Of a DNA stretch of 64,000 nt, positions 47,036-61,652 are shown in pieces (within the stretch, counting starts at the first letter, position 1; each line of letters opens with the position of its first letter). The notes under the pieces are model-generated. The model was not told the origin of the DNA. It ran no database searches and saw only the letters and a list, made by a program, of their open reading frames with translations. Source of the stretch: Rhodanobacteraceae bacterium ZG21-1 (GTDB lineage: Bacteria; Pseudomonadota; Gammaproteobacteria; Xanthomonadales; Rhodanobacteraceae). The stretch spans positions 1,488,001 through 1,552,000 of the forward strand of contig JAJEJU010000025.1 of assembly GCA_021390615.1 (NCBI GenBank), read 5' to 3'. Made by a program: the position numbers and the translations under genes.

Positions 47036-47968
47036 ATGGCTAGACCGATCGACCTGCGCCTGCTGCACTACTTCGTCACGGTGGCCGAAGAGCGCAACAT
47101 CACCCGCGCCGCGCAGCGCCTGAGCATGGCGCAGCCGCCGCTGAGCCAGCAGATGCGCCTGCTCGAGCAGCGCCTCGGAGTGGAACTGTTCGAGCGGCAG
47201 CCCTCCGGCATCGCGCTGACCCGCGCCGGCGAAGCCCTGCTGGTGCGGGCGCGCGAAGTGCTGGCCGGCGCCGACGGCCTGGTGCCCTATGTGCGGCAGG
47301 CGGCACGCGGCCGCTATCGCCTGCTGAAGATCGGCCTGACCACCTCGGCCTCGCTGCACGCCACCACCTCGGAACTGCTGCGCCGCTGCGCGGCGCGCCA
47401 CGAGGAGCTGTCGATCGAGCTGCACGACGGCAACGCGCAGAACCTCACCGGACGGCTGGTCGACGGCGAGCTGGACCTGGTGCTGCTGCGCGCGCCGGTG
47501 CTGCGGCCCGATTCGCTGGAGTACAAGATCATCGACCACGAGCCGCTGCTGCTGGCCTTGCCGGCCGCGCACCCGCTCGCAGGCGCGAGGCGCAAACGGA
47601 TCGCGCTGGGCGGGCTGGCGCAGGAGGCCTTCATCCTGGTGCGCGAGCCCGGCCAGCCCGGCATCTACCAGCAGCTGCTGCAGGCCTGCTCGGCCGCCGG
47701 CTTCGAGCCGCACATCGCCGCCGAGGTGCCGCGCATGCTGGCCTGCCTGAACCTGGTCGCGGCCGGCATCGGTATTTCCGTGGTGCCGGCCTCGATGCAG
47801 TCGGTGATGACGGCGCACGTGCGCTGCCTGCCGTGCGTGGGACTGGAAGCGCTGCATGCGCCGCTGACCCTGCTGGTGCGCAAGCAGGAACGGCGGCCGC
47901 TGGTGCATGCGGTGGTCGAGGAAGCGGCGCGGCTGACCTCGCACCGGCCGCGCGCTAAGCGCGGCTAG
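47036..47968 (+). CDS. LysR-family regulator of the esterase/malic enzyme gene cluster
   Basis: 310 aa. The DNA-binding region is RLLHYFVTVAEERNITRAAQ, then RLSMAQPPLSQQMRLLEQRLGVELFER; the substrate domain shows the CbnR/CatM-like pattern (GEALLVRAREVL, GISVVPAS). It is divergent from the esterase-porin-malic enzyme-AEC cluster and most likely senses an organic or aromatic acid. The last four bases overlap the convergent antiporter gene, both genes ending within one CTAG. Confidence 0.92.
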   Translation: MARPIDLRLLHYFVTVAEERNITRAAQRLSMAQPPLSQQMRLLEQRLGVELFERQPSGIALTRAGEALLVRAREVLAGADGLVPYVRQAARGRYRLLKIGLTTSASLHATTSELLRRCAARHEELSIELHDGNAQNLTGRLVDGELDLVLLRAPVLRPDSLEYKIIDHEPLLLALPAAHPLAGARRKRIALGGLAQEAFILVREPGQPGIYQQLLQACSAAGFEPHIAAEVPRMLACLNLVAAGIGISVVPASMQSVMTAHVRCLPCVGLEALHAPLTLLVRKQERRPLVHAVVEEAARLTSHRPRAKRG

Positions 47969-49635
47969 CCTGCCGGCGCGGCCTGCCGGGTCAAGGCGAT
48001 CTCGGCCAGGTCCAGCTCGCGCGTCATGGTGTGCAGGACCGCGTCGTCGACCCGCTGGGTGCGGCGCAGGCGCTGCAGTTCCTCGCGCTCGGCGCGCAGC
48101 GCGGCCAGACGCAGCTCGCGCTCGATGCCGGCCAGCCGCCGCGCCTGCTGCGGCCCTTCGCCGTCGTCCTCGCCGGCCGCCTCGATGCGCTGCTGGTAGT
48201 CGGCGCTGACCCGCGCGCCGACCTCGGCGACCTGGGCCACCACGCTCGCACCGGCGCCCTCGCCGAGTTCCTCCACACGCCGGTCGACCGCCTGCAGCGC
48301 GGCCTGCGCGGTGCGCGCGCGGGCCATGCGCTCCTCGCGCACGTGCGCGGTCTCGGCCGGCAGCTGCAGGCCGCGAATCAGCAGCGGCAGGCCGACGCTG
48401 CCGGCCAGCAAAGTAGTCAGGATCACCCCAGTGGCCAGGAAGATCAGCAGGTCGCGCGCGGGAAAGCCGCTGCCGTCGTGCAGCAGCGGCGGCAGCGACA
48501 GCACGCCGGCCAGGGTGATCGCGCCGCGCACGCCGGACAACGCGGTGACCCAGATCAGCCGCACGCCCGCGCGCGGGCGCTCGCGGCGATGCAGGCGTGC
48601 CCACAGGTAGGACAGCCGCAGCGACACCCACACCCACACGAAGCGCAGCAGGATCAGGCCGAGGGTGATCGCCAGCACGTACAGCGGCAGCTGCCACAGC
48701 GCGCTGCCGCCGGCCTGCTGCAGATCGGTGCGCGCGCCGCCGAGGATCGAGGGCAGCTGCTGACCGAGCAGCAGGAAGATGATGCCGTTGAAGACGAACT
48801 CGACCATGTTCCACACGCTGCCGGCCTGCATGCGCGTGGCCACCGGGCTGCCTTTGCGGATGTCGACGTAGTTCATGGTCATGCCGGCCGCCACCGCGGC
48901 CAGGATGCCCGACACGTGCAGGTGCTCGGCCAGCAGGTAGGCGGCGAACGGCAACAGCAGCAGCAACGCCACCGGAGCCGCCGGGTTGGCGTCGCCGTTC
49001 CAGCGCAGCAGGCGCCGCCACAGCCGCGCGAACAGCCAGGCCGAAGCGAAGCCCACGAACAGTCCGCCCAGCGCCACCAGCACGAAACTTACGGCCGCCT
49101 CGCCCGGCGAGAAGCGCGCGGTCAGCACGGCCTGTACGGCGAACTGCAGGGCGACCAGGCCGGAGGCGTCGTTCATCAGCGCCTCGCCTTCCAGCACGTG
49201 CTGCAGGCGCTGCGGCAGGCGCGAGCTGCCGGTGATCGAACTCACCGCCACCGCGTCGGTGGGCGACAGCACCGAGGCCAGCGCGAACGCTGCCGCCAGC
49301 GGCACCGCCGGAATCATCCAGTGCACGAAGTAGCCGATGCCGAACACGGTGAACAGCACCAGCCCGAAGGCCAGGGTGACGATCGGCCGGCGCAGCAGGA
49401 AGAACTCGCGCTTGGGAATGCGCCAGCCGTCGGCGAACAGCAGCGGCGGAATGAACAGCAGGAAGAACAGCTGGTGGTCGAACTGCACATGCAGGCCGAA
49501 CGCCGGCAGCGCCAGCAGCGCGCCCAGGCCGATCTGCATCAGCGGCAGCGGCAGCGCGAACGGCAGCAGCCGCAGCAGCGCGCCGGACAGCGCCACCACC
49601 AGCAGCAGGATCAGCACGGTGTAGACGATGGTCAT
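47965..49635 (-). CDS. CPA1-family Na+/H+ antiporter
   Basis: 556 aa. Twelve or so inner-membrane helices with family motifs FIPPLLFADGW, ASVLSPTDAVAVSS with the ion-binding Asp, LEGEALMNDASGLVALQF (the ND motif) and SGVRGAITLA with the essential Arg. A cytosolic C-terminal domain of about 120 residues is largely helical coiled coil (ALRAEREELQRLRRTQRVDD). It exchanges Na+ or K+ for H+. The start is ATG 49635. Confidence 0.9.
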   Translation of the reverse strand: MTIVYTVLILLLVVALSGALLRLLPFALPLPLMQIGLGALLALPAFGLHVQFDHQLFFLLFIPPLLFADGWRIPKREFFLLRRPIVTLAFGLVLFTVFGIGYFVHWMIPAVPLAAAFALASVLSPTDAVAVSSITGSSRLPQRLQHVLEGEALMNDASGLVALQFAVQAVLTARFSPGEAAVSFVLVALGGLFVGFASAWLFARLWRRLLRWNGDANPAAPVALLLLLPFAAYLLAEHLHVSGILAAVAAGMTMNYVDIRKGSPVATRMQAGSVWNMVEFVFNGIIFLLLGQQLPSILGGARTDLQQAGGSALWQLPLYVLAITLGLILLRFVWVWVSLRLSYLWARLHRRERPRAGVRLIWVTALSGVRGAITLAGVLSLPPLLHDGSGFPARDLLIFLATGVILTTLLAGSVGLPLLIRGLQLPAETAHVREERMARARTAQAALQAVDRRVEELGEGAGASVVAQVAEVGARVSADYQQRIEAAGEDDGEGPQQARRLAGIERELRLAALRAEREELQRLRRTQRVDDAVLHTMTRELDLAEIALTRQAAPAG

Positions 49636-50610: not shown

Positions 50611-52101
50611 TTATCCTCCGGACGCCACGTCGTGGCGATTCCACCAGCCGCCGCCCAGCGCCTGGAACAAGGCCACGCTGTCGGCATAGCGGCCCGCCTG
50701 CGCCTGCGCCAGCGCGATCGCCGCCTGCAGCCGGGCCTGCTCGGCGGTGAGCAGGGCCAGCTCGCTGAGGTCGCCCAGCGCGAACTGGCGCTTGGCGATC
50801 TCCAGGCTGCGCGCCGCCGCCTGGTCGGCGCTCGCCGCCGCGGCCAGCGTCTGCGCATCGGACTGCACCGCATGCAAGGTGTCCGCCACGTTCTGCAGCG
50901 CGTCGATCACCGTGCTGCGGTACTGCGCGGCGCTCTGCCGCAGGGTCGCTTCGGCCGCCTTCTGCTTGTGCTTCAGGGTGCCGCCGTCGAACAGCGGTGC
51001 GGTGATGTTGGCGCCCAGGTTCCAGAAGCCGGTGCCGTGCCCGAACAGGTCGCTGTGGTCGTCGGCCGCGCTGCCCCAGTTCCCGGTGATCTGGATGTTC
51101 GGCAGGCGGCTGGCGATCGCCACGCCGACCTGGGCGCTGGCCGCATGCAGCTGCTCGTCGGCCATGCGCACGTCGGGACGCTGCTCGACCAGGCGCGCCG
51201 GCAGGTTCAGCGGCAACTGCGCGGGCAGCTGCAAGTCGTCCAGGTGGAAGCTCGCGTCGATCGTCTGGTCGGGCGTGCGCCCGCTCAGCGCGGCCAGCAG
51301 GTCGCGCTGCTGGGCCAGCTGCTTTTCCAGCGGCGGCAGGGTGGCGCGGCTTTGCGCCAGCGCGGTGCGCTGCGCCGCCACTGCGGCTTCGGAAACGTCG
51401 CCGAGCGTCTGCTGGCGCAGCATAGTGTCGAGCATGCGCTGCTGGTCGTCGACGATGCGCCGGGTGGCCTCCAGCTGCGCGCGCAGGGAGGCTTCCTGGA
51501 TCGCCGCATTGACCAGGTTGGTGGTCAGGGTGAGGTAGGTCGCCTCGAGCTGGAAGCGCTGCGCGTTGGCCTGCGCCACCAGCGATTCCAGCTGCCGCCG
51601 GTTGCCGCCCCACAGGTCGGGCGCGTAGGACACGCTGACCTGGGCGGTGGTGAGGTTGTACAGCGTGCTGTTCGAGGCCACCCCGCTGGACAGCACCGTG
51701 CCGGTCTTGCTGCGAGTCGGATCGATGCTGGCGTTGAGGCTGGGGAAAAACGCGCCGCGTTGCGCGCGTGCGTTCTCCCAGGCCGCCTGCAGCGCGCCCT
51801 GCGCGGCCTCGACGTCGGCGTTGTGCTTCAGCGCGTCGTCGATCAGCGCGTTGAGCGGCTGCGAGTGGAACAGCGTCCACCACTGCCCGGGGATGTCCAT
51901 GTCGCGCACGAACTGCTGCGCGCCGCCGGCGGTGCCTGCGGCCGAGACCGTGCTCGACGGCTGCGGCGTCGGCGCATAGCCGGTCGTCGCCGGCGCCGCG
52001 GGACGCCGGTAGTCCGGCCCCACCGCGCAGGCGGCCAGCGCCAGCGCGACGGCGGAAGCGAGCAGGGCTTGTCTGATGTGCTTTTTGTGGATGGCGCGCA
52101 T
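50611..52101 (-). CDS. RND efflux outer-membrane factor, NodT family lipoprotein
   Basis: 496-aa TolC-like channel lipoprotein. Lipobox LALAACAVG with Cys 25 is followed by GPDYRRPAAP, the family start, and WWTLFHSQPLNALIDDALKH. Two pseudo-repeats of helix and strand carry LSVSYAPDLWG-type and LFDGGTLKHKQKAAEA segments. It completes a tripartite pump with the two genes upstream; its ATG is two bases after the stop of the pump gene, so all three are one operon. Confidence 0.93.
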   Translation of the reverse strand: MRAIHKKHIRQALLASAVALALAACAVGPDYRRPAAPATTGYAPTPQPSSTVSAAGTAGGAQQFVRDMDIPGQWWTLFHSQPLNALIDDALKHNADVEAAQGALQAAWENARAQRGAFFPSLNASIDPTRSKTGTVLSSGVASNSTLYNLTTAQVSVSYAPDLWGGNRRQLESLVAQANAQRFQLEATYLTLTTNLVNAAIQEASLRAQLEATRRIVDDQQRMLDTMLRQQTLGDVSEAAVAAQRTALAQSRATLPPLEKQLAQQRDLLAALSGRTPDQTIDASFHLDDLQLPAQLPLNLPARLVEQRPDVRMADEQLHAASAQVGVAIASRLPNIQITGNWGSAADDHSDLFGHGTGFWNLGANITAPLFDGGTLKHKQKAAEATLRQSAAQYRSTVIDALQNVADTLHAVQSDAQTLAAAASADQAAARSLEIAKRQFALGDLSELALLTAEQARLQAAIALAQAQAGRYADSVALFQALGGGWWNRHDVASGG

Positions 52102-52103
52102 GT

Positions 52104-55100
52104 TCAGATCTCCCTGCCGGTCGGCGCATGGCCGCGGTGCCGCTCGATGAAGCGCTCGATCGCGAAATAGCTGCCGGGCAGGATGTACAGGGTGAGCAAG
52201 GTGGCGATCGGCAGACCGCCGACCACTACGGTGGCGAGGCCTCGCTGCACGTCGGTGCCGATGCCGGTGGCCAGGGCCGCCGGCAGCATGCCGACGCTGG
52301 CCACGGTGGCGGTCATCAGTACCGGGCGGAAGCGTTCGCTGGCGCCGGCCAGCACCGCTTCGGCCAGGGACAGCCCTTCGCGGCGCACTCGGTTGATGTT
52401 GGACACCATGATGATGCCGTTCTGCACGGCCACGCCGAACAGCGCGATGAAACCGACCGCGGTGGCGATGTTCAGCGTCTCGCCGCGCACGTGCAGCGAG
52501 ATCAGCCCGCCCACCGTGGCCAGCGGCACCACCGCCAGCACCAGGAAGGCCTGATGCAGCTTGCCGAACTCGGCGAACAGCAGCACCGCCATGATCGCCA
52601 TCACCATGGCCATCACCACCATCAGCCGCGCCTGCGCGCGCTGCGCGTTCTCGAAGCTGCCGGCCCATTCGAGCTGGTAGCCCTGCTTGTCGAAATGCAC
52701 CTTGGCGTCGATCTGCGCCTGCGCGTCGGCCAGGTACTCCGACAGCGCGCGGTCGCGGTTGTCGATGCGGATGGTCAGCTGGCGCTTGCCGTGCTCGTGC
52801 GCGATGGTGCTCTCGCCGGTGGCCAGACGGATGTCGGCCACCTGCTTCAGCGGCACCTGCGCGCCGCCGGTCGAGCTCAGCGGCAGCTCGCCGATCGCCT
52901 CCACGTTGTTGGCCAGCGCATTCGGCACGCGCGCGGTGACGTTGTACACGCGATCGCCCACGTAGACCTGGGTGATCGGCGCGCCGCCGAGGGCGGTCTG
53001 GATCAGGCCGCTGATGTCGGTCACGTTGATGCCGTAGCGCGCCGCCGCCGAACGGTCGGCGGTGATCAGCAGCTGCGGGATCGGCGGCTCCTGGAAGATC
53101 GAGGCGTCGGCGGTGCCGCGCACGCCCTGCAGCACGTCGACGATCTGCCCGCCGATGCGGCGCAGCTCCTTGAAGTCGTCGCCGTAGATGCGCAGCACCA
53201 GCGGGCTGTGCGCGCCGCCGACCATGTCGTTCTCGCCGTCCACGATCGGCTGGCTGACGCCTACGCTGATGCCGGGGATCTGCTGCATGCGCGCGTTGAA
53301 CTTGCGCAGGAACTCCGCCTTGGTCTCGCCGTGGGCCCAGCTGTCGTAGGGCTTGAGGCCGACCGCCGACTCGACGTGCGACGGCGTCCACGGGTCGGTG
53401 CCGCTGTCGTTGCGGCCGAGCTGGGTCACCACGTAGGAGACTTCCGGGAATTCCCGCACGGCGCGTCGCAGCTGCGCGGTCATCTCGCTGGCCTTGTCCA
53501 GCGACAGGCCGGTGGGCATCTGCACCTGCAGCCACAGCGAGCCTTCGTCCAGTTCGGGCAGGAACTCGCGGCCGATGGTCGCGCCCAGCAACAGCACGCC
53601 GCACAGCGCCACGGCCGCGGTGAGGTAGACCACCGGCAGCCGATGCAGCAGGCGGCCGAGGCTGTTGTTGTAGCCGGATTGCAGGCGTTCCAGCAGCTTG
53701 TTGTGGAACAGCTTGCGCGGCTTGCGCAGGGCCAGGTAGGCCAGGCCCGGGGTCAGCGTCACCGTGCACAGCAGCGCAGCCAGCAGGGCGTAGCCCACGG
53801 TGAAGGCCATCGGCCGGAACAGCTTGCCTTCGGCATGCTCGAAGGCGAACAGCGGCAGGTAGGCGGTGATGATGATGAGGGTGGCGAAGAAGATCGAGCG
53901 GCCGACGTGGCCGGTCACCGTCATCACATCGTCCTCGGTGAGCACCTCGTTGGGCTTTTCTTCGCGCCGACGCAGGATCGCCTCGGTCACCACGATGGTG
54001 CCGTCGACGATCACGCCGAAGTCGATCGCGCCCAGCGAGAACAGGTTTGCCGGCATGTGGGTGAACTGCATCAGGATGAACACGGTGACCAGCGACATCG
54101 GAATCGCCACCGCCGCCACCAGGGCCGAGCGCGGGCTGCCCAGGAACAGGATCAGCACGATGCACACCAGGCCGACGCCTTCCATCACGGTGTGGAAGAC
54201 TTTTTCCTTGGTGGCGTCGACCAGATCGTCGCGGTCGATGTACGGCACGATGCGCACGTCCTGCGCGGCCAGCTGCTTGTTGAGCTCGGCGACCTTGGCA
54301 TGGATGCCTTCCAGCACGCGCGAGGGGTTCTCGTACTTGAGCAGGTCGACGATGCCTTCGATGGTGTCCGGGTTGCTGTCCTTGCCGAGGATGCCCTGGC
54401 GCACCTGGTGGCCGTACTGCAGCTTGCCCAGGTTGCGCACCAGCACCGGCACGCCGTTGCTCTGGGTCACCACGATGTCGCCCAGGTCCTTCAGCGTGTG
54501 CACCATGCCGATGCCGCGCACGATGTAGGACTGCTCGCCGCGGCTGATGCGGCCGCCGCCGGCATTGGCGGTGTTGGCCGAGATCGCGCTGCTGACCTGG
54601 CTCACGCTGACCCCGTAGTGGGCCAGCTGAGCCGGATCGAGTTCGAGCTGGAATTCCTTGGTGAAGCCGCCGAACACGTCCACGTTGGCGACGCCGGGAA
54701 TCTGCTGCAGCGCCGGCACGATGGTCCAGTTCTGCAGTTCGGACAGCTGCATCAGGTTCTTGCTGTTCGACTCCAGCGTGTAGCGGTAGATCTCGCCGGC
54801 CGGGCCGGACACCGGGTCCAGCCCGGGCGTCACGCCCGGCGGCAAGGTGACCTGAGCGATGCGCTCGGCCACGCGCTGGCGTTCCCAGTAGTCCTCTGCG
54901 CCGTCCTTGAACACCATGGTGATCAGCGACAGGCCGAAGGTGCTGCTCGAGCGCATGCTGATCAGGCCGGGCGTGCCGGCCAGGCCACGCTCCAGCGGCG
55001 TGGTGACCTGCTGTTCGATCTCTTCGGCGGCCAGCCCCGGCACCTGGGTGGTGACCTGGGCGGTGACGTCGCTGAGCTCCGGGTACGCCTCGATCGCCAG

Positions 55101-55199
55101 CTGGGTCCAGGAGTAATAGCCGAAGCAGGCGACCAGCAGGGTCACCACGATGAACAGCACGCGCTTCTGGAAGCAGAAGTGGAAGATCGCGTTAATCAT
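52104..55199 (-). CDS. Heavy-metal RND efflux pump, CzcA/CusA family
   Basis: 1031-aa proton-driven inner-membrane pump with 12 helices and two large periplasmic loops. The HME-RND signature AYPELSDVTAQVTTQVPGLA is near the N-terminus. In helix 4, Asp393, Asp399 and Glu406 (AIDFGVIVDGTIVVTEA) match the proton relay triad of Zn/Co/Cd-type CzcA (Asp402, Asp408, Glu415), and not that of Cu/Ag CusA. This suggests divalent metal export, but similar pumps of unknown substrate exist. The start overlaps the fusion-protein stop by eight bases. Confidence 0.92.
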   Translation of the reverse strand: MINAIFHFCFQKRVLFIVVTLLVACFGYYSWTQLAIEAYPELSDVTAQVTTQVPGLAAEEIEQQVTTPLERGLAGTPGLISMRSSSTFGLSLITMVFKDGAEDYWERQRVAERIAQVTLPPGVTPGLDPVSGPAGEIYRYTLESNSKNLMQLSELQNWTIVPALQQIPGVANVDVFGGFTKEFQLELDPAQLAHYGVSVSQVSSAISANTANAGGGRISRGEQSYIVRGIGMVHTLKDLGDIVVTQSNGVPVLVRNLGKLQYGHQVRQGILGKDSNPDTIEGIVDLLKYENPSRVLEGIHAKVAELNKQLAAQDVRIVPYIDRDDLVDATKEKVFHTVMEGVGLVCIVLILFLGSPRSALVAAVAIPMSLVTVFILMQFTHMPANLFSLGAIDFGVIVDGTIVVTEAILRRREEKPNEVLTEDDVMTVTGHVGRSIFFATLIIITAYLPLFAFEHAEGKLFRPMAFTVGYALLAALLCTVTLTPGLAYLALRKPRKLFHNKLLERLQSGYNNSLGRLLHRLPVVYLTAAVALCGVLLLGATIGREFLPELDEGSLWLQVQMPTGLSLDKASEMTAQLRRAVREFPEVSYVVTQLGRNDSGTDPWTPSHVESAVGLKPYDSWAHGETKAEFLRKFNARMQQIPGISVGVSQPIVDGENDMVGGAHSPLVLRIYGDDFKELRRIGGQIVDVLQGVRGTADASIFQEPPIPQLLITADRSAAARYGINVTDISGLIQTALGGAPITQVYVGDRVYNVTARVPNALANNVEAIGELPLSSTGGAQVPLKQVADIRLATGESTIAHEHGKRQLTIRIDNRDRALSEYLADAQAQIDAKVHFDKQGYQLEWAGSFENAQRAQARLMVVMAMVMAIMAVLLFAEFGKLHQAFLVLAVVPLATVGGLISLHVRGETLNIATAVGFIALFGVAVQNGIIMVSNINRVRREGLSLAEAVLAGASERFRPVLMTATVASVGMLPAALATGIGTDVQRGLATVVVGGLPIATLLTLYILPGSYFAIERFIERHRGHAPTGREI

Positions 55200-56325
55200 T
55201 GAGCAGCACTCCGCCCTTCACGATCACCCGGTCGCCCGCCTTCAGGCCCTTCACCACGCGCGCGCCGGCGGTCTCGTCGTAGCTCAGCTCGACGGTGCGG
55301 CGCTCGAAGGTCCACGGCGCGGTCTCGACGAACACGCTGATGTTGTCGTTGTTCATCAGCAGCGCCGAATCCGGCACGAACACCTGCGGCGGCTGCGGCA
55401 CGTCGATGCTGGCGTTGGCGAACATGTTCGGCTTCAGCTGGCCGTCCGGATTGGCGAAGCTGGCGCGCACCAGGTCGCGCCGCGTATCCGCCTGCAGCAG
55501 CGGACTGACGAAGCTCACGCTGCCGCGGAACTGTTTGCCCGGATAGGCCGACAGCACGGCGTCGACCGCCTGCCCCTTGGCGACCTGGCCGGCGTCGCTC
55601 TCCGGCACGTTGGCGGTGATCCACACCGTGTCCAGGTTGGCCACGGTCATCATCGACGCGGTGGCGTCGTTGACGTAGGCGCCCGGCGACACGGTCAGCG
55701 CGGTGACGTAGCCGCTCAGCGGCGCGGTCACCTGCATGGTGCGCAGCGCGTGCTGGCCGGAAGCGCCGCCCATCGCGGTGAGCCGCGTCTGCGCGCGATC
55801 GAATTCGGCCTGCGCCTGGTGATAGGCGCTCTGCGCGGCTTCCAGGTCCTTGGCGGCGTTGCCGCCGGCCTGCTGCACGCCGCGCGCGCGCTCCAGCGCC
55901 TTGCGCGCCAGCTCGAGCGCGTCGCGCGCCTTGTCCACGTCGGTGGCCGCCTGCGCGAAGTCGCCCGAGGCGATCACCGCCAGCAGCTGGCCGCGCTCCA
56001 CCCGATCGCCCAGGCCTACCTTCAGCGCGACCACCTTGCCGGTCAACGGCGGCAGGATATTGGTGGTGTGCGCCGGATCGGCCTCGACATTGGCCGGGAA
56101 AACCAGCGCATGCGGCGCCTGCCGCAGCTCCACCGGCTGCACCACCAGCTCGCTGCGCAGCGGGGATTTTTCAGGAACCCGCAACAGGCCGTGCTCGCTG
56201 ATCAGGCTCGGCGGCGGCGCCTCTTCCGGCGCGTGCGAACAGGCCGCGAGCGACAGGGAAAGCGACACGGCCGCGGCCACGGCGGCGCGGCGGCGGAAAG
56301 AATGTTTGATCGACTGGAACCCCAT
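55192..56325 (-). CDS. RND periplasmic adaptor, lipoprotein
   Basis: 377-aa membrane fusion protein (HlyD/CusB type). Lipobox LSLAACS, then the barrel-sandwich hybrid (LTGKVVALKVGLGDRVERGQLLAVI), a short helical hairpin (ARDALELARKALERA) and a beta-barrel/membrane-proximal domain ending ALLMNNDNISVFVET and GLKAGDRVIVKGGVLLND. There is no His/Cys-rich metal-binding N-terminus as seen in some CzcB. Start ATG 56325 has AAGGGAAAG upstream. First gene of the operon; no two-component or MerR regulator is adjacent. Confidence 0.92.
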   Translation of the reverse strand: MGFQSIKHSFRRRAAVAAAVSLSLSLAACSHAPEEAPPPSLISEHGLLRVPEKSPLRSELVVQPVELRQAPHALVFPANVEADPAHTTNILPPLTGKVVALKVGLGDRVERGQLLAVIASGDFAQAATDVDKARDALELARKALERARGVQQAGGNAAKDLEAAQSAYHQAQAEFDRAQTRLTAMGGASGQHALRTMQVTAPLSGYVTALTVSPGAYVNDATASMMTVANLDTVWITANVPESDAGQVAKGQAVDAVLSAYPGKQFRGSVSFVSPLLQADTRRDLVRASFANPDGQLKPNMFANASIDVPQPPQVFVPDSALLMNNDNISVFVETAPWTFERRTVELSYDETAGARVVKGLKAGDRVIVKGGVLLND

Positions 56326-56471
56326 GGGCTTTCCCTTCGGCAGGTGCTCATACGCCCCCTGCGCCACGCGGGGCCAGGGAGCAAGTCAAGCGGCGGGAAG
56401 CTCATGTGCGCTCGATTCGCCGAGCGCCTCCCGGACCGCGGATCAGGCCAGTACTGACCGCCGCGGCCGGA

Positions 56472-56570: not shown

Positions 56571-58238
56571 CTAACCGTGGGCGCCGAACGGCGTCGGGCT
56601 GGCTTCGCGGACCAGGCGGTCCTGAAGCAGGCCGGCGCGCTCGAGCACCGGGTAGGCCAACGCGGCCAGATGCGAGTGGATCCGCTTCAGGTCGCGCAGG
56701 ATGCGCAGATAGACATCGCCCGCGCCGCCCTCGTCGCGCCGTTCGCGCAGGGCGCGGATATGGCGCTCGGAAATCTCGTACTCCAGCCGCCACAGGGCTT
56801 CCTTGCGGCCGACCAGCTGCTGTGCCGCACGCACGTCGCTGCGCAGGAACACCGCCATCCCCAGCCGCAGGCTCTCCATCACCTGGCCGTGCATCTGCGC
56901 CAGATCCTGGATGTCGTCCGCGGAGAAATCCTGGCCGCGTTCGGCCTTCTTGGCCGCGAACTCCATCAGATTGTTGGCGGTGATATCACCGATATGCTCG
57001 ATATTGATGACAAAGGCCAGGATTTCCTGACTGCGCGCGCCGTCCTCCTCGTTCAGCGCCTCGGCGCCCAACTCGGCCAGGTATTCGCGGATGGCCAGAC
57101 CCAGCCGGTCGAGCACCGAATCCATGCGGCTGATCGCGCCGGCGCGCTGGCGATCGTCCTTGCCGAAGATCTCGACCAGGCCTTTCAGCATGCTTTCGAC
57201 CATGTCGGCCATGCGCATCGATTCGCGCGCGGCATTGGCCAGCGCGACGTTGGCGCTGTCCAGCGCAGACTCCTCGAGATACTGCGGCACGCCGGCGTCG
57301 GCCGGCCGCGGCGGCTCGGGCAGCAGGCGCACCAGCAGGCGCGCTAGGCTCTCCACCGGCACGATGAACAGCAGCGCCAGCGCCGCGTTGAAGATGGTGT
57401 GGAAGTTCACCGCGACGCGCGCCGGCGTGGCGCCTAGCGGGGCCAGCCAGCCGGCCAGCGGGTGCAGCAGCGGCAGGCACACCAGGCAGCCGAACGCGCG
57501 CACCAGCAGGTTGCCCAGCGGCAAGCGGCGGGCCACCGGGGTGTGTGCGTCGAGCAGGGCCGGCAGCGTGCCGCCCAGGTTGGCGCCCAGCACCAGGGCC
57601 AGCGCGCCCTGCGCATCGACCACTCCGGCATTGGCCAGCGAAACGATCAGCAGCACCACCGCCACGCTGGAATGGCAGGCCCAGGTCAACAGCGCCGCCA
57701 CCAGCACCGCCAGTACCGGCTCGTCGGACAGGCTCTGCAGCACGGCATGCAGCACCGCCGCGTTCTCCACCGGCGCCAGCGACTGCACCAGCAGATGCAG
57801 GGACAGCAGCATCAGGCCCAGGCCGATGGCGACGCGGCCGAGATTCTCGTAGCGCGCGTCGTCGCTGCGCCGGTGCACCACGAAGCCGATCAGCACCAGC
57901 ACCGGCGCGATCAGCGAGATGTCGAACGACAGCAGCTGCACCACCAGGGTGCTGCCGACATTGGCGCCCAGCATCACCGCCAGGCCCGGGGCGAGGCCGA
58001 GAAAGCCGCCGGCGGCGAACGAGGTGGCCATCATGCCGGTGGCGGTACTGCTCTGCAGCAGCGCGGTGACGCCCATGCCGAAGCAGAACGCAGCGGGGCG
58101 GTGGCTGAGATAACGGCCCAGCCAGCGGCGCAGCGCGCTGCCGTAGCCGCGCAGCACGCCGCTGGTGACCATGTGCGTGCCCCACAGCAACAGGGACACG
58201 TAGCCGGCGATGTCCAACAGGACGAAGGTTCCCTTCAT
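56571..58238 (-). CDS. Na+/phosphate cotransporter family protein with PhoU-like tail
   Basis: 555 aa. The first 310 residues are two inverted membrane repeats each with the family motif: LLQSSTATGMMATSF and CHSSVAVVLLIVSLA, with GANVGST and GANLGGT. The C-terminal 230 residues are PhoU-like helical bundles (ESMRMADMVESMLKGLVEIF, INIEHIGDITANNLMEF). It moves phosphate with Na+; family members in bacteria often act in Pi homeostasis. It follows the Mg2+ ATPase gene at 89 bp on the same strand. Confidence 0.9.
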   Translation of the reverse strand: MKGTFVLLDIAGYVSLLLWGTHMVTSGVLRGYGSALRRWLGRYLSHRPAAFCFGMGVTALLQSSTATGMMATSFAAGGFLGLAPGLAVMLGANVGSTLVVQLLSFDISLIAPVLVLIGFVVHRRSDDARYENLGRVAIGLGLMLLSLHLLVQSLAPVENAAVLHAVLQSLSDEPVLAVLVAALLTWACHSSVAVVLLIVSLANAGVVDAQGALALVLGANLGGTLPALLDAHTPVARRLPLGNLLVRAFGCLVCLPLLHPLAGWLAPLGATPARVAVNFHTIFNAALALLFIVPVESLARLLVRLLPEPPRPADAGVPQYLEESALDSANVALANAARESMRMADMVESMLKGLVEIFGKDDRQRAGAISRMDSVLDRLGLAIREYLAELGAEALNEEDGARSQEILAFVINIEHIGDITANNLMEFAAKKAERGQDFSADDIQDLAQMHGQVMESLRLGMAVFLRSDVRAAQQLVGRKEALWRLEYEISERHIRALRERRDEGGAGDVYLRILRDLKRIHSHLAALAYPVLERAGLLQDRLVREASPTPFGAHG

Positions 58239-58327: not shown

Positions 58328-60979
58328 TTACAGCCAGTGTCCATAGCGGCGGATATAGAAGCGCTTCATGATTTGAGTGAGCACGCAGTAGGCCAGCACG
58401 GTCACCGCCAGCCAGCCGAAGTAGGCCTGCGGCAGTTCCATCATCTTCAGCTTGATGCCGAGGCCGGTGAACGGGATGGCCAGGCCGATCGCGATGATCG
58501 CGGTGGTCAGCCCCAGCACCGGCGCCGTGGCCATGCTTTGCACGAACGGGATGCGGCGCGTGCGGATCATGTGCACCACCAGGGTCTGCGTGAGCAGGCT
58601 CTCGATGAACCAGCCCGACTGGAACAGCGTCTGGTGCGCCTCGCTGTTGGCGCCGAACACGAACCACAGCAGGGCGAAGGTGGTGATGTCGAACACCGAG
58701 CTGGTCGGCCCGATCCAGAACATGAAACGGCCGATGTCGCTGGCGTTCCACTTGCGCGGCTTGCGCAGGTATTCGTCGTCCATGCGGTCGAACGGGATCG
58801 ACAGCTGCGAGATGTCGTACAGCAGGTTCAGCACCAGCACCTGCAGCGGCAGCATCGGCAGGAACGGCAGGAAGAAGCTGGCCACCACCATGCTCAGCAC
58901 GTTGCCGAAGTTGGAGCTGGCGGTCATCTTGATGTACTTGATGATATTGCCGAAGGTGACGCGCCCCTCGAGCACGCCCTCCTCCAGCACCATCAGGTTC
59001 TTTTCCAGCAGGATGATGTCGGCCGACTCCTTCGCGATGTCCGTGGCGGTGTCCACCGAGATGCCCACGTCCGCCTCGCGCAGCGCCGGCGCATCGTTGA
59101 TGCCGTCGCCGAGGAAGCCGACCGTGTGGCCCTGGCGCTGCAGCGACTTCACCACGCGCGCCTTCTGCAGCGGCGACATCTTGGCGAACACGGTGGTGCG
59201 CTTGACCAGCTCGTCCAGCGCCGCATCGTCCAGCGGCTCGATGTGCTTGCCCTGCGCGGAGTGCTCGACGTTGAGCCCGACCTCGCGGCAGATCTTGCGC
59301 GTCACCGCCTCATTGTCGCCGGTGATCACCTTCACCTCGACGCCGTGGTGATGCAGCGCGGCGATGGCGGTGGCGGCCGAGTCCTTCGGCGGATCGAGGA
59401 AGGCCAGACAGCCGACTGCGATCAGTTCCTGCTCGTCCTTCACGCCGTAGGTGCCGCCGTGCGGCGCGGCCTGCTTGATCGCCACCACCAGCACGCGCAG
59501 GCCGTCCTCGTTGAGCTCGCGCGTCATCGCCTTGATCTCGCGGCGACGCTCCTCGGTCATCGGCACGATCTCGTCGCCGCGGCGTTCCTGGGTGGAGATC
59601 GCCAGCATTTCTTCCACCGCGCCCTTGCAGATCAGCAGGTGCCGGCCGTCGCCGCCGTCCAGCACCACCGACATGCGCCGGCGCTGGAAGTCGAACGGGA
59701 TCTCGTCGACCACGCGGAAGCGCGCCACCGTGCCTTCCAGGTCGCGATGCGCCAGCACCGCCTTGTCCATCAGGTTCTTCAGGCCGGTCTGGAAGTGGCT
59801 GTTGAGGTAGCCGTACTCCAGCGCGTCCTCCGACTCCTCGCCGTCCAGGTCGAGGTGGCGCTCCAGCACGATCTTGTCCAGCGTCAGCGTGCCGGTCTTG
59901 TCGGTGCACAGCACGTCCATCGCGCCGAAGTTCTGGATCGCGTTGAGCCGCTTCACCACCACCTTGCGCTTGGACATGGCGATCGCGCCCTTGCCCAGGT
60001 TGGCGGTGACGATCAGCGGCAGCATCTCCGGGGTCAGGCCCACCGCCACCGACAGCGCGAACAGCAGCGCGTCGAAGAAGCCCTGCTTGTACCACTGGAT
60101 CGCCAGCACGATCGGCACCATCACCAGCATGAAGCGGATCAGCAGCCAGCTGACGCTCTTCACGCCGCGGTCGAAGCTGGTCTGCACGCGCTCGCCGACG
60201 ATGCTGCGCGCCAGCGAACCCAGGTAGGTGCGCGCGCCGGTCGCCACCACCACCGCGCTGGCCGAGCCGCTGACCACGTTGGTGCCCATGTAGCAGACCG
60301 TGCCCAGGTCCAGCGGATTGTCCGGTGCCGTGGCGTGCTCGCCGGCCTCGATCTGCGCCAGCGTGGGCGGCGCCTTCTCCACCGGCAGCGACTCGCCGGT
60401 GAGGATGGCCTGGCTGATGAACAGGTCCTTGGCGGCCAGCAGGCGCAGGTCGGCGGGCACCATGTCGCCCGCGCCCAGATGCACGATGTCGCCGGCGACC
60501 AGCTCGTTGACCGGCACCTCGATCCGCTCGCTGTGGCCGTCCGAGGCGCGCCGGGTCACCGTGGCGGTGTTGTGCACCATCGCCTTGAGCTTCTCGGCCG
60601 CCTTCGAGGAGCGGTACTCCTGGGTGAAGCTGAGCAGCACGCTGATGCCCACCATCACCCCGATGATGATCGGACCCGACAGGTCGTCGGGGGTCACGAA
60701 CACCTGCACCACCGCCAGGATCAGCAGCACCACGATGAACGGGTTCATGAAGGCGCGCAGCAGCTGGCGCGACCAGTGCGGCGGCTTCTCGTGCGACACC
60801 TCGTTGACGCCGTCGCGATCCAGCCGCTCGTCGATCTGTTCCTCGTTGAGGCCGGCGGCGCTGGTCTCCAGCGAGGCCAGCAGCGCGTCGCGCTCGCGGA
60901 ACGCCTCCTGCGCCACGGCAACCCGCACGGCGGCTGACCCGCTCTTGCCCGCAGCGGACGGGATCACTTGCTTGATCAT
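58328..60979 (-). CDS. mgtA: Mg2+-importing P-type ATPase
   Basis: 883-aa P3B ATPase of the MgtA/MgtB family, which imports Mg2+ when it is scarce. Motifs in order: NPFIVVLLILAVVQVF (first helices), ILTGESLPVEK (actuator TGES), ALSVAVGLTPEMLPLIVTANL (helix 4, with the family's TPEMLP), DKTGTLTLDK with the phosphorylated Asp360, and GDGINDAPALREADVGISVD (hinge). The start is ATG 60979 with GGATAA upstream. It is preceded by a 150-base hairpin-rich spacer and a small ORF, a leader layout like that of regulated mgt genes elsewhere. Confidence 0.93.
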   Translation of the reverse strand: MIKQVIPSAAGKSGSAAVRVAVAQEAFRERDALLASLETSAAGLNEEQIDERLDRDGVNEVSHEKPPHWSRQLLRAFMNPFIVVLLILAVVQVFVTPDDLSGPIIIGVMVGISVLLSFTQEYRSSKAAEKLKAMVHNTATVTRRASDGHSERIEVPVNELVAGDIVHLGAGDMVPADLRLLAAKDLFISQAILTGESLPVEKAPPTLAQIEAGEHATAPDNPLDLGTVCYMGTNVVSGSASAVVVATGARTYLGSLARSIVGERVQTSFDRGVKSVSWLLIRFMLVMVPIVLAIQWYKQGFFDALLFALSVAVGLTPEMLPLIVTANLGKGAIAMSKRKVVVKRLNAIQNFGAMDVLCTDKTGTLTLDKIVLERHLDLDGEESEDALEYGYLNSHFQTGLKNLMDKAVLAHRDLEGTVARFRVVDEIPFDFQRRRMSVVLDGGDGRHLLICKGAVEEMLAISTQERRGDEIVPMTEERRREIKAMTRELNEDGLRVLVVAIKQAAPHGGTYGVKDEQELIAVGCLAFLDPPKDSAATAIAALHHHGVEVKVITGDNEAVTRKICREVGLNVEHSAQGKHIEPLDDAALDELVKRTTVFAKMSPLQKARVVKSLQRQGHTVGFLGDGINDAPALREADVGISVDTATDIAKESADIILLEKNLMVLEEGVLEGRVTFGNIIKYIKMTASSNFGNVLSMVVASFFLPFLPMLPLQVLVLNLLYDISQLSIPFDRMDDEYLRKPRKWNASDIGRFMFWIGPTSSVFDITTFALLWFVFGANSEAHQTLFQSGWFIESLLTQTLVVHMIRTRRIPFVQSMATAPVLGLTTAIIAIGLAIPFTGLGIKLKMMELPQAYFGWLAVTVLAYCVLTQIMKRFYIRRYGHWL

Positions 60980-61129
60980 GGTGTTATCCGGGGATTTCGG
61001 TGGAGCCCGCCGCCGCGGGCAGCGGCGGGGCGAGACCGTGCGCGAGGCACGCGGCGTACGGCGATCGTCAGTGCGATCGCGACCGCTCCGTCAGCGACGG
61101 AGGCCAGGTCTTGCGAAGGGCATGCAGCT
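60980..61129 (-). promoter_or_regulatory. Structured spacer between leader ORF and mgtA
   Basis: Three perfect 7-bp hairpins stand in this 150-base stretch: 61086-61102 (CTCCGTC/GACGGAG), 61061-61080 (GCGATCG/CGATCGC) and 61007-61028 (CCGCCGC/GCGGCGG). None is followed by a T-run. Such structures could control Rho access or ribosome entry of mgtA in response to Mg2+; this is inference by analogy with enterobacterial mgtA leaders. Confidence 0.5.
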
Positions 61130-61384
61130 TCATGCCTGCCTGGATAACAGAACTTTGTTGCTGCGAGTTTGCAGCGAACGCTGGGCGGCGGCGCGGGCCG
61201 CGGCGGCGGCGCGGGCGGCAGCCAGATCGGCGGCCGGGCGCGGCAGCTCGATCACGGCCGCTTCGGCCGCTGGGGACAGCGGCGCGGGAACCGTGATGGA
61301 ACGGGGAAGCCGTGCCTTCTGGCGGCTGGACGGCAGCAGGCCGCGCAGGCTACGCAGAAAACCGAGATCGCGAAGGAGTTTCAT
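61130..61384 (-). CDS. Small Ala/Arg-rich ORF in the mgtA leader
   Basis: 84 aa. ATG 61384 is preceded by GAGGAG at eight bases. The product starts MKLLRDLGFLRSLRGLLPSS, with a Pro-containing middle (LPRSITVPAPLSP) and an Ala/Arg repeat (LAAARAAAAARAAAQR) near the end. I do not recognise it. Its position, with a strong ribosome site and hairpins on both sides, makes a leader or regulatory peptide possible; a small membrane-associated partner is the alternative. Coding status is uncertain. Confidence 0.5.
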   Translation of the reverse strand: MKLLRDLGFLRSLRGLLPSSRQKARLPRSITVPAPLSPAAEAAVIELPRPAADLAAARAAAAARAAAQRSLQTRSNKVLLSRQA

Positions 61385-61400
61385 GGCCCATCTCCTCGTT

Positions 61401-61458
61401 ACGGCGCTACGGCGCCGTCGAGGGGGCCGGATTTCCCTAGTCTAGGAAAACGCCGGCC
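61401..61458 (-). promoter_or_regulatory. Two stem-loops before the mgtA leader ORF
   Basis: 61401-61418 is ACGGCG/CGCCGT with a six-base loop, directly before the ribosome site of the small ORF. 61425-61458 is GGCCGG/CCGGCC enclosing a second dyad around TTTCCCTAG and CTAGGAAA. Together they form the 5' part of the likely mgtA leader RNA. Confidence 0.45.
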
Positions 61459-61652
61459 GACCGCAGGCGGTCGCCGCAGAGAACCAGCTTGTGATGCAGT
61501 GTCGACATCCGATGCTCGCGGATGACGACCTTGCGACTAGGGTAAACGTCCATATGCCTTGGTTTGGTAGGACAGGGAGCCGACCGCACGTGATGCGCGG
61601 AAGGCGCGCGTATTGTCTTGCCGCAATGCGGCAGTGTCAACCCGCCACGGAA

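Follow-up and report, generated by a model that had tools for sequence, protein, structure and literature searches.

Organization of the mgtA locus

The 64,000-nt stretch of Rhodanobacteraceae bacterium ZG21-1 DNA analyzed here (the window) carries on its reverse strand a co-directional run of genes headed by mgtA and continued by a Na/Pi cotransporter gene with a PhoU domain, a CzcB-like adaptor, a CusA/CzcA-type permease and a NodT-type protein (Table 1). The nearest named MgtA loci are those of Dyella, Rhodanobacter, Frateuria, Luteibacter and Dokdonella. The initial annotation of this region had called attention to a small open reading frame with a strong ribosome site, set among hairpins upstream of mgtA. 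That observation holds: the 84-codon frame (61130-61384, here termed ORF2) is preceded by the ribosome site GAGGAGATGGGCCATG, and the leader strand between 60977 and 61606 folds at -296 kcal/mol, as compared with -264 +/- 7 kcal/mol for 20 dinucleotide shuffles (z = -4.7), none of which was equally stable. ORF2 and its hairpins are, however, the middle of a larger leader in which one promoter is followed by three small ORFs; ORF1, ORF3, the promoter upstream of both and the copies of the leader that precede other genes had been overlooked.

Table 1. Features of the mgtA leader and of the genes behind it (window coordinates)
Feature	Position	Strand	Remarks
Promoter TTGACA-N17-GACAAT	61612-61640	-	-35 at 61640; near-consensus sigma-70 pattern match
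ORF1, 38 codons, MDVYPSRKVVIREHRMSTLHHKLVLCGDRLRSAGVFLD	61437-61553	-	frame kept, little peptide constraint
Long-range helix P0	61435-61542	-	CCCTAGTC (61535-61542) with GACTAGGG (61435-61442)
Hairpin P1, CATCCG/CGGATG, in ORF1	61506-61524	-	91% of cells paired, two-sided changes at three pairs
Hairpin P2, GACCG/CGGTC, in ORF1	61459-61472	-	91% of cells paired, two-sided changes at three pairs
Hairpin P3 around ORF1 stop codon	61425-61458	-	87% of cells paired, two-sided changes at four pairs
Hairpin P4 over ORF2 ribosome site	61385-61428	-	GGCCC/GGGCC base, inner GACGGCGCC hairpin
ORF2, 84 codons, core ITVPAPL	61130-61384	-	150 nt upstream of mgtA
ORF3, 21 codons, MKLHALRKTWPPSLTERSRSH	61068-61133	-	ATGA overlap with ORF2 stop
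Hairpin GCGATCG/CGATCGC	61061-61080	-	ORF3 stop codon in loop; window sequence and fold
mgtA, Mg2+-translocating P-type ATPase	58328-60979	-	TIGR01524 equivalog, 1270 bits (cut-off 611)
Na/Pi cotransporter with PhoU domain	56571-58238	-	direction as mgtA
RND periplasmic adaptor, CzcB-like	55192-56367	-	
RND permease, CusA/CzcA family	52104-55199	-	TIGR00914, 901 bits
NodT-type outer-membrane efflux protein	50611-52100	-	start not fixed
Na+/H+ exchanger	47965-49635	-	farther down the mgtA strand in the window

The site at 61640-61612, a pattern match rather than a mapped start, is the only promoter-like site between 60950 and 61760 (shuffled sequences have a mean of 0.1) and, hence, transcription of the mgtA leader probably begins near 61605, 5' of all the features noted at first. 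The initial annotation presupposed that mgtA transcription does not start downstream of 61130, and the predicted promoter agrees with it. A -35/-10 pair was likewise found in 90 of the 91 leader rows that remained from 113 after removal of identical cores, with the -35 element beginning 80-102 nt 5' of ORF1, and the sole row without it is a fragment comprising only ORF1 (its removal leaves the 90 leaders used below). No terminator-like site was found on the leader strand between 60950 and 61760 in a search for intrinsic terminators. The leader lies directly upstream of mgtA and, judging from its position and promoter pattern, is predicted to be part of the same transcript. Conservation among relatives, for which the initial annotation had called, was apparent for the promoter, for ORF2 and for the stems.

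Small open reading frames of the leader

Conservation within the leader is highest in ORF1, located between the promoter and ORF2, with its alternative RNA helices, described below. Almost every close locus fetched by MgtA has ORF1 upstream of mgtA. Its start is recognizable in 43 of 45 close MgtA-anchored loci (the other two being L063, cut by its contig, and L079, devoid of a leader), and ORF1 was not seen in 35 more distant MgtA loci (L105, L107-L140). The distance from its ATG to its TAG is 111, 114 or 117 nt, always a multiple of three, in 42 of the 43 MgtA-anchored leaders, the exception being the frameshifted L086, and the ORF1 of L074 has 38 codons once its anchor is corrected by hand from an upstream CTAGG (automatic count, 41). 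The flanks, on the other hand, vary by single bases, from 55 to 65 nt between -10 and ATG and from 54 to 63 nt between TAG and the ORF2 start. In 57 rows of 38 codons the substitutions are spread across the three codon positions (.36/.33/.30) and synonymous changes are as frequent as in column-permuted data, with no third-position excess; such permutations preserve the make-up of each column and are hence a weak control. Amino-acid changes in the same rows are milder in frame than out of frame (mean BLOSUM.32 versus -.37 and -.15), a trend that is not repeated in the 23 rows of 37 codons. Residues M1, D2, P5 and S6 are invariant in all 31 aligned rows, which may reflect a constraint on either the RNA or the peptide. 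Given the multiple-of-three length and the even distribution of changes among codon positions, the ORF1 frame appears to be under selection and its peptide, at most, weakly so. A strongly conserved ORF1 peptide was considered and set aside on account of the even codon positions, in spite of the invariant residues and of the milder in-frame changes of the 38-codon rows. In two leaders (L086 and L157) ORF1 is frameshifted to 27 codons and the flanking hairpins are retained, a natural test of the requirement for the usual stop.

ORF2 is present in 88 of the 91 leader rows, starting 47-60 nt past the ORF1 stop (84-85 nt in two rows), and ranges from 13 to 116 codons. Many of its relatives share a core of the form R(R)...TVTVPAPL; across 15 conserved columns of 87 ORF2s, 55% of the substitutions fall on the third codon position, and the codon test (.199) lies just above its permuted range (.181-.189). 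Of the peptide features singled out by the initial annotation, the proline-containing middle is kept in relatives, whereas the terminal Ala/Arg run is confined to the ORF2 of the window. With the 84-aa query alone, matches at E<=1 occur in 57 of 61 genomes; most of them look like chance matches in GC-rich sequence, and only a few of the rows adjoin ORF1. Neither ORF1 nor ORF2 has a match in Pfam. A second ORF2 motif (WxxDxxxGRPVAxWH / WxRNxxTGALECRW), identified by eye in L052, L153, L202 and others, recurs in leaders of the mgtA, NRAMP and AdoMet-decarboxylase types. ORF2 may make a functional small protein.

ORF3 with a WPP motif follows in 38 of the 87 leaders that have an ORF2, its ATG overlapping the ORF2 stop in 32 of them (offset -1 or -4) and lying 7-14 nt behind it in the other six. 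The window version reads RKTWPP, with only WPP, and many relatives carry RKGWPPP. In the conserved columns of this core, 70% of the substitutions fall on the third position (the rows having been selected for WPP), and over all columns the codon test gives.230, which is not above the permuted.232-.250; we place more weight on codon-position shares in conserved columns than on permutations. Elsewhere, the ORF behind ORF2 reads, by eye, RGLRPPP, MNSDID (in Luteibacter) or MPxDSRPP (in RND and porin leaders), so that acidic or proline-rich starts recur despite differing sequence. A hairpin (P5; GACTCGC/GCGAGTC and variants, 5' arm at -39 to -49) covers the mgtA ribosome site in 19 of 43 leaders (p<=0.05 against 200 simple shuffles per leader). 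A universal role for P5 was discarded, since it is restricted to those 19 and missing in the window; the alignment there is too poor for pair counts.

Alternative RNA structures

Helix P0 pairs ORF1 codons 4-7 with its last codon, its stop and the bases that follow, and both of its strands belong to the best-conserved DNA in the leader. Pair counts come from the 45 stretches that were aligned out of 49 prepared, the four left out being divergent RND- or porin-type leaders. P0 is paired in 90.5% of cells, with C-G replaced by A-U in 3 of the 45 rows at one pair (12 rows being unpaired there) and in one row at another, while the P4 base changes from C-G to U-A at one pair in 9 of the 45 rows and the inner P4 hairpin shows 10 and 15 compensatory cells at two pairs. 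Two sets of helices, drawn by eye from the very sequences tested and hence favored by the count, were evaluated as a whole: the first, made up of P1, P2, P3, inner P4 and a 5' hairpin (itself 76% paired), has 86.8% of its cells in standard pairs, and its alternative, made up of P0, P1, P2 and P4, has 90.0%. For both sets, the covariation score and the number of paired cells are higher than in any of 500 shuffles or any slid version; further pair types were unremarkable, with 31 and 38 of the 500 shuffles equally high. P3 shares strands with both P0 and the P4 base and, therefore, the two states would be mutually exclusive; the pair counts support the presence of such alternative structures in the leader.

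Predicted foldings, which cover 82 of the 90 leaders, favor P0 at equilibrium, with a pair probability above 0.5 for P0 in 77 of the 82 and for P3 in two. When a ribosome is placed in silico on ORF1 codons 1-10, P3 gains more than 0.1 in 75-78 of the 82 leaders, mean P0 drops from.88 to.00-.01, mean P3 climbs from.09 to.81-.85, and the P4 base loses more than 0.1 in 32-45 of the leaders. The predicted opening of the ORF2 ribosome site depends on the set-up: with the mask at ORF1 codon 5 it rises in 41 leaders and falls in 14 under one set-up (n = 90), and rises in 19 and falls in 40 under the other (n = 82). With the mask at the ORF1 stop it rises in 60 and falls in 18, and rises in 41 and falls in 24, respectively; in the leader of the window the same mask reduces the opening from.37 to.19 and from.40 to.23.

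Distribution of the leader and linkage to mgtA

A covariance model built from 30 leaders (R1) locates the leader once in the genome of the window, together with two chance-level matches, and finds it in 123 of 197 genomes of the same family (E<=0.001). An earlier count based on ORF1 had yielded 121 of the 197 (E<=0.1), some of the weak matches probably being due to chance, and the covariance-model figure is preferred to it. Among 369 genomes sampled across the class, under stricter filters, R1 matches one, that of the window itself, and an ORF1 profile matches 62 of 299 genomes of the order, all within the family except for one weak partial match.

In the 197 family genomes, the leader lies 320-714 nt upstream of 118 of the 120 best-scoring MgtA matches (joined by coordinates; copies of the leader from related genomes do not count as independent observations). 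One of the two remaining matches (G110) lies on a contig that begins 5 bases before it, and an orphan leader ends another contig of that genome; the other (G173) is a true exception, for its contig extends 28 kb farther, no leader occurs in the genome and the MgtA is only 46% identical over the stretch compared. Among the leader matches listed, none precedes the next 30 MgtA matches (the best 150 being listed), and the only genome in this set with unlisted leader matches, G031, carries them elsewhere; the unlisted matches of G006 and G036 were looked up as well. The two MgtA groups are defined by score, the second one comprising ranks 121-150 (e.g. G016:C2:1984064-1986652), without a leader among the listed matches. 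Two more MgtA genes, in L079 and G173:C45, have no leader. A contig filed as Candidatus Eremiobacteraeota (L063, CAJCJD010000234.1) encodes an MgtA 86% identical to that of the window behind the 3' part of a leader, on which grounds it is probably mis-binned.

Genes downstream of other leader copies

Of 30 leader copies examined for their targets, one precedes mgtA (L211) and one ends with its contig (L156). Among the 28 others, CzcB-CzcA genes follow the leader in 10, an NRAMP gene plus an OprB-type porin in eight, a porin alone in three (L151, L174, L180) and a Na/Pi gene in two (L148; L158, where CzcBA come next), the ORF2 of these last two having just 13 and 27 codons. The remaining group of five (L197, L200, L202, L204, L206) has an AdoMet-decarboxylase-like gene in first place in all but L200. 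This assignment is a weak one, with Pfam scores above the cut-off in L197 and L204, just below it in L206 and a resemblance by eye only in L202. In a Pfam scan that covered L197, L200 and L206 but not the large ORFs of L202 and L204, TonB-receptor domains scored above the cut-off in L200 and L206 and slightly below it in L197. The L197 locus also has mig-14, some 3.6 kb past the leader. Of three weaker leaders, L215 (E 9e-13) precedes the same NRAMP gene, L217 (E 9e-4) a Na/Pi gene and L216 (E 2e-12) a Na+/H+ exchanger.

The NRAMP target is nearest to the Mg2+ transporter EleNRMT (7qia, E 1.4e-54), the next chain scoring 1.2e-20 and MntH chains 1.4e-13 or weaker. Of the NRMT signature described in PMC8806188 (TxxA in helix 6, DxxG in helix 1), it displays by eye the helix-6 TxxA and, in helix 1, DxxA instead of DxxG; according to the same source, NRMT proteins carry Mn2+ too. 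The OprB-family porin, either alone or behind the NRMT-like gene in the eight NRAMP loci, may provide an outer-membrane route for Mg2+. The Na+/H+ exchanger of the window is 70% identical to the one directly after the divergent leader copy L216 in G006 (L216:1-1239, reverse strand). The mgtA operon of the window may extend as far as its exchanger gene.

A proposed translation-sensing leader and its alternatives

Sequence comparison thus shows one promoter, three ORFs, alternative helices and, throughout the family, an association with a single group of mgtA genes. We consider it probable that this ~630-nt region is a cis-acting mRNA leader that couples the translation of short ORFs to the expression of mgtA and the genes behind it, and that it has been reused as a module in front of targets suited to low Mg2+. 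The signal would be low cytoplasmic Mg2+, as we infer from the target genes, and the sensor, ribosomes slowed or lost on the M-D-x-x-P start of ORF1 and/or at the WPPP of ORF3. The ribosome on ORF1 would choose between P0 plus P4 and P3, thereby gating ORF2, which would in turn pass ribosomes to ORF3 through the stop-start overlap; ORF3 would then gate mgtA by opening its ribosome site (held by P5 in many relatives) and/or by blocking Rho. Several observations were counted against this mechanism: the ORF3 of the window has only WPP and its mgtA site lacks P5, ORF3 with WPP is limited to under half of the leaders with ORF2, and neither CzcBA-type pumps nor OprB porins are classic Mg2+ genes. 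The predicted effect of an ORF1 ribosome on the ORF2 ribosome site also weighs against it, since at codon 5 its sign differs between the two set-ups and at the ORF1 stop the window departs from most leaders. The Mn2+ transport of NRMT proteins and the weak AdoMet-decarboxylase assignment were counted against the low-Mg2+ reading.

The export of phosphate helps under low Mg2+. The Na/Pi cotransporter YjbB can export it, as stated in PMC11389368. Salmonella responds to low Mg2+ by inducing MgtA and polyamine synthesis (PMC12421838) as well as PhoP-dependent mig-14 (PMC3335776). Slow translation of an upstream ORF can switch on mgtA or corA, as mgtL and corL show (PMC11552253 and PMC11282234). 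It is on these precedents that we read the leader as a translation-sensing, low-Mg2+ module.

The even distribution of ORF1 substitutions over codon positions and a synonymous fraction no different from permuted data would also be expected if the ORF1 region were the aptamer of a true riboswitch, sensing Mg2+ or another ligand directly, with ORF1 itself incidental. The near-invariant nucleotide runs at both of its ends (ATGGAC and ACCCTAGTCG) and the P0 helix fit such an aptamer, but the distance between ATG and TAG remains a multiple of three while the flanks shift by single bases, and in-frame changes are milder in the 38-codon rows, if not in the 37-codon ones; we therefore deem a riboswitch unlikely. 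An equally doubtful proposal retains the mechanism and replaces the signal by another divalent metal, the proline/EF-P state or general translation stress. After mgtA, the leader most often precedes CusA/CzcA-type pumps (10 loci plus L158), the WPPP motifs suggest polyproline stalling and NRMT-type transporters also carry Mn2+, all of which would suit it; the main target, however, is a Mg2+ ATPase at the equivalog level, the NRAMP target has a Mg2+ transporter as its nearest match, and the polyamine-type targets and mig-14 fit low Mg2+.

It is less likely still that ORF2 encodes an ordinary small operon protein, the sole object of leader control, with mgtA merely downstream. The third-position excess of its conserved core, its recurrent second motif and the position of P4 over its ribosome site would agree with this, and are countered by the wide range of ORF2 lengths, at its lowest before the Na/Pi genes of L148 and L158, and by the ORF3 with WPP that follows it in many leaders. 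Finally, most of the weak matches to the 84-aa query have the random, GC-rich look expected if the ORFs and stems were chance features of a GC-rich intergenic region; the conservation and kept frame of ORF1, the promoter, the pair counts, the third-position excess and the linkage to mgtA contradict this so thoroughly that we regard it as ruled out for practical purposes.

Returning to the translated low-Mg2+ leader as our preferred reading, its broadest version is a low-Mg2+ regulon of the Rhodanobacteraceae run by copies of one leader, in which a three-ORF relay has its ribosome speed read by an RNA switch and which covers mgtA, the NRMT-like importer, RND pumps, Na/Pi and Na+/H+ transporters, porins and polyamine-type genes. 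On this joint claim we find the case evenly balanced. If true, translation-based Mg2+ sensing in mgtA leaders would have arisen at least twice, with differing architectures, and the leader would represent a new RNA family, a copyable module with which to build a multi-gene regulon from RNA and an independent system in which to ask how far ribosome behavior itself senses Mg2+. It would also mean that, in soil bacteria, Mg2+ uptake is tied to the transport of Na/Pi, to polyamine-type genes and to the efflux of metals.

Comparison with known leaders

No Rfam family reaches its gathering score anywhere in the window, and a relaxed scan of the leader returned only sub-threshold matches, the best of them to the speF leader (RF00518). 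We found no publication on such a leader in the open-licence literature, and a report elsewhere is possible. The speF leader also holds an ORF within a structured leader; its match is to the 5' part of the present leader, at 14.6 bits against a cut-off of 37, and its target gene differs. The M-box (ykoK) is a Mg2+ leader that serves as a module for more than one gene, and it resembles the present leader in this reuse, with no match at the gathering score in the window.

The closest parallels are mgtL and corL of Salmonella and E. coli. Like the present leader, corL places an upstream ORF inside alternative stems before a Mg2+ transporter gene, but the target is corA, the ORF is single and no Rfam family is shared. 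The mgtL leader, compared here through leader descriptions and Rfam models, is a long mgtA leader with a short ORF that contains proline and acidic residues and with mutually exclusive RNA structures. Short ORFs with such residues near their start are found here in ORF3 (WPP) and in ORF1 (MD..P in every aligned row); in contrast to the single ORF of mgtL, the present leader has three, ORF1 and ORF2 lack a named counterpart and copies precede other genes. In the best reading, then, the leader works like mgtL and corL and stands outside any catalogued family. The initial annotation had proposed an independent solution to the problem that mgtA leaders solve in enterobacteria, and this remains the best account, with the amendment that the MgtL-like proline peptide would be ORF3, through its WPP or WPPP, rather than the 84-codon ORF.
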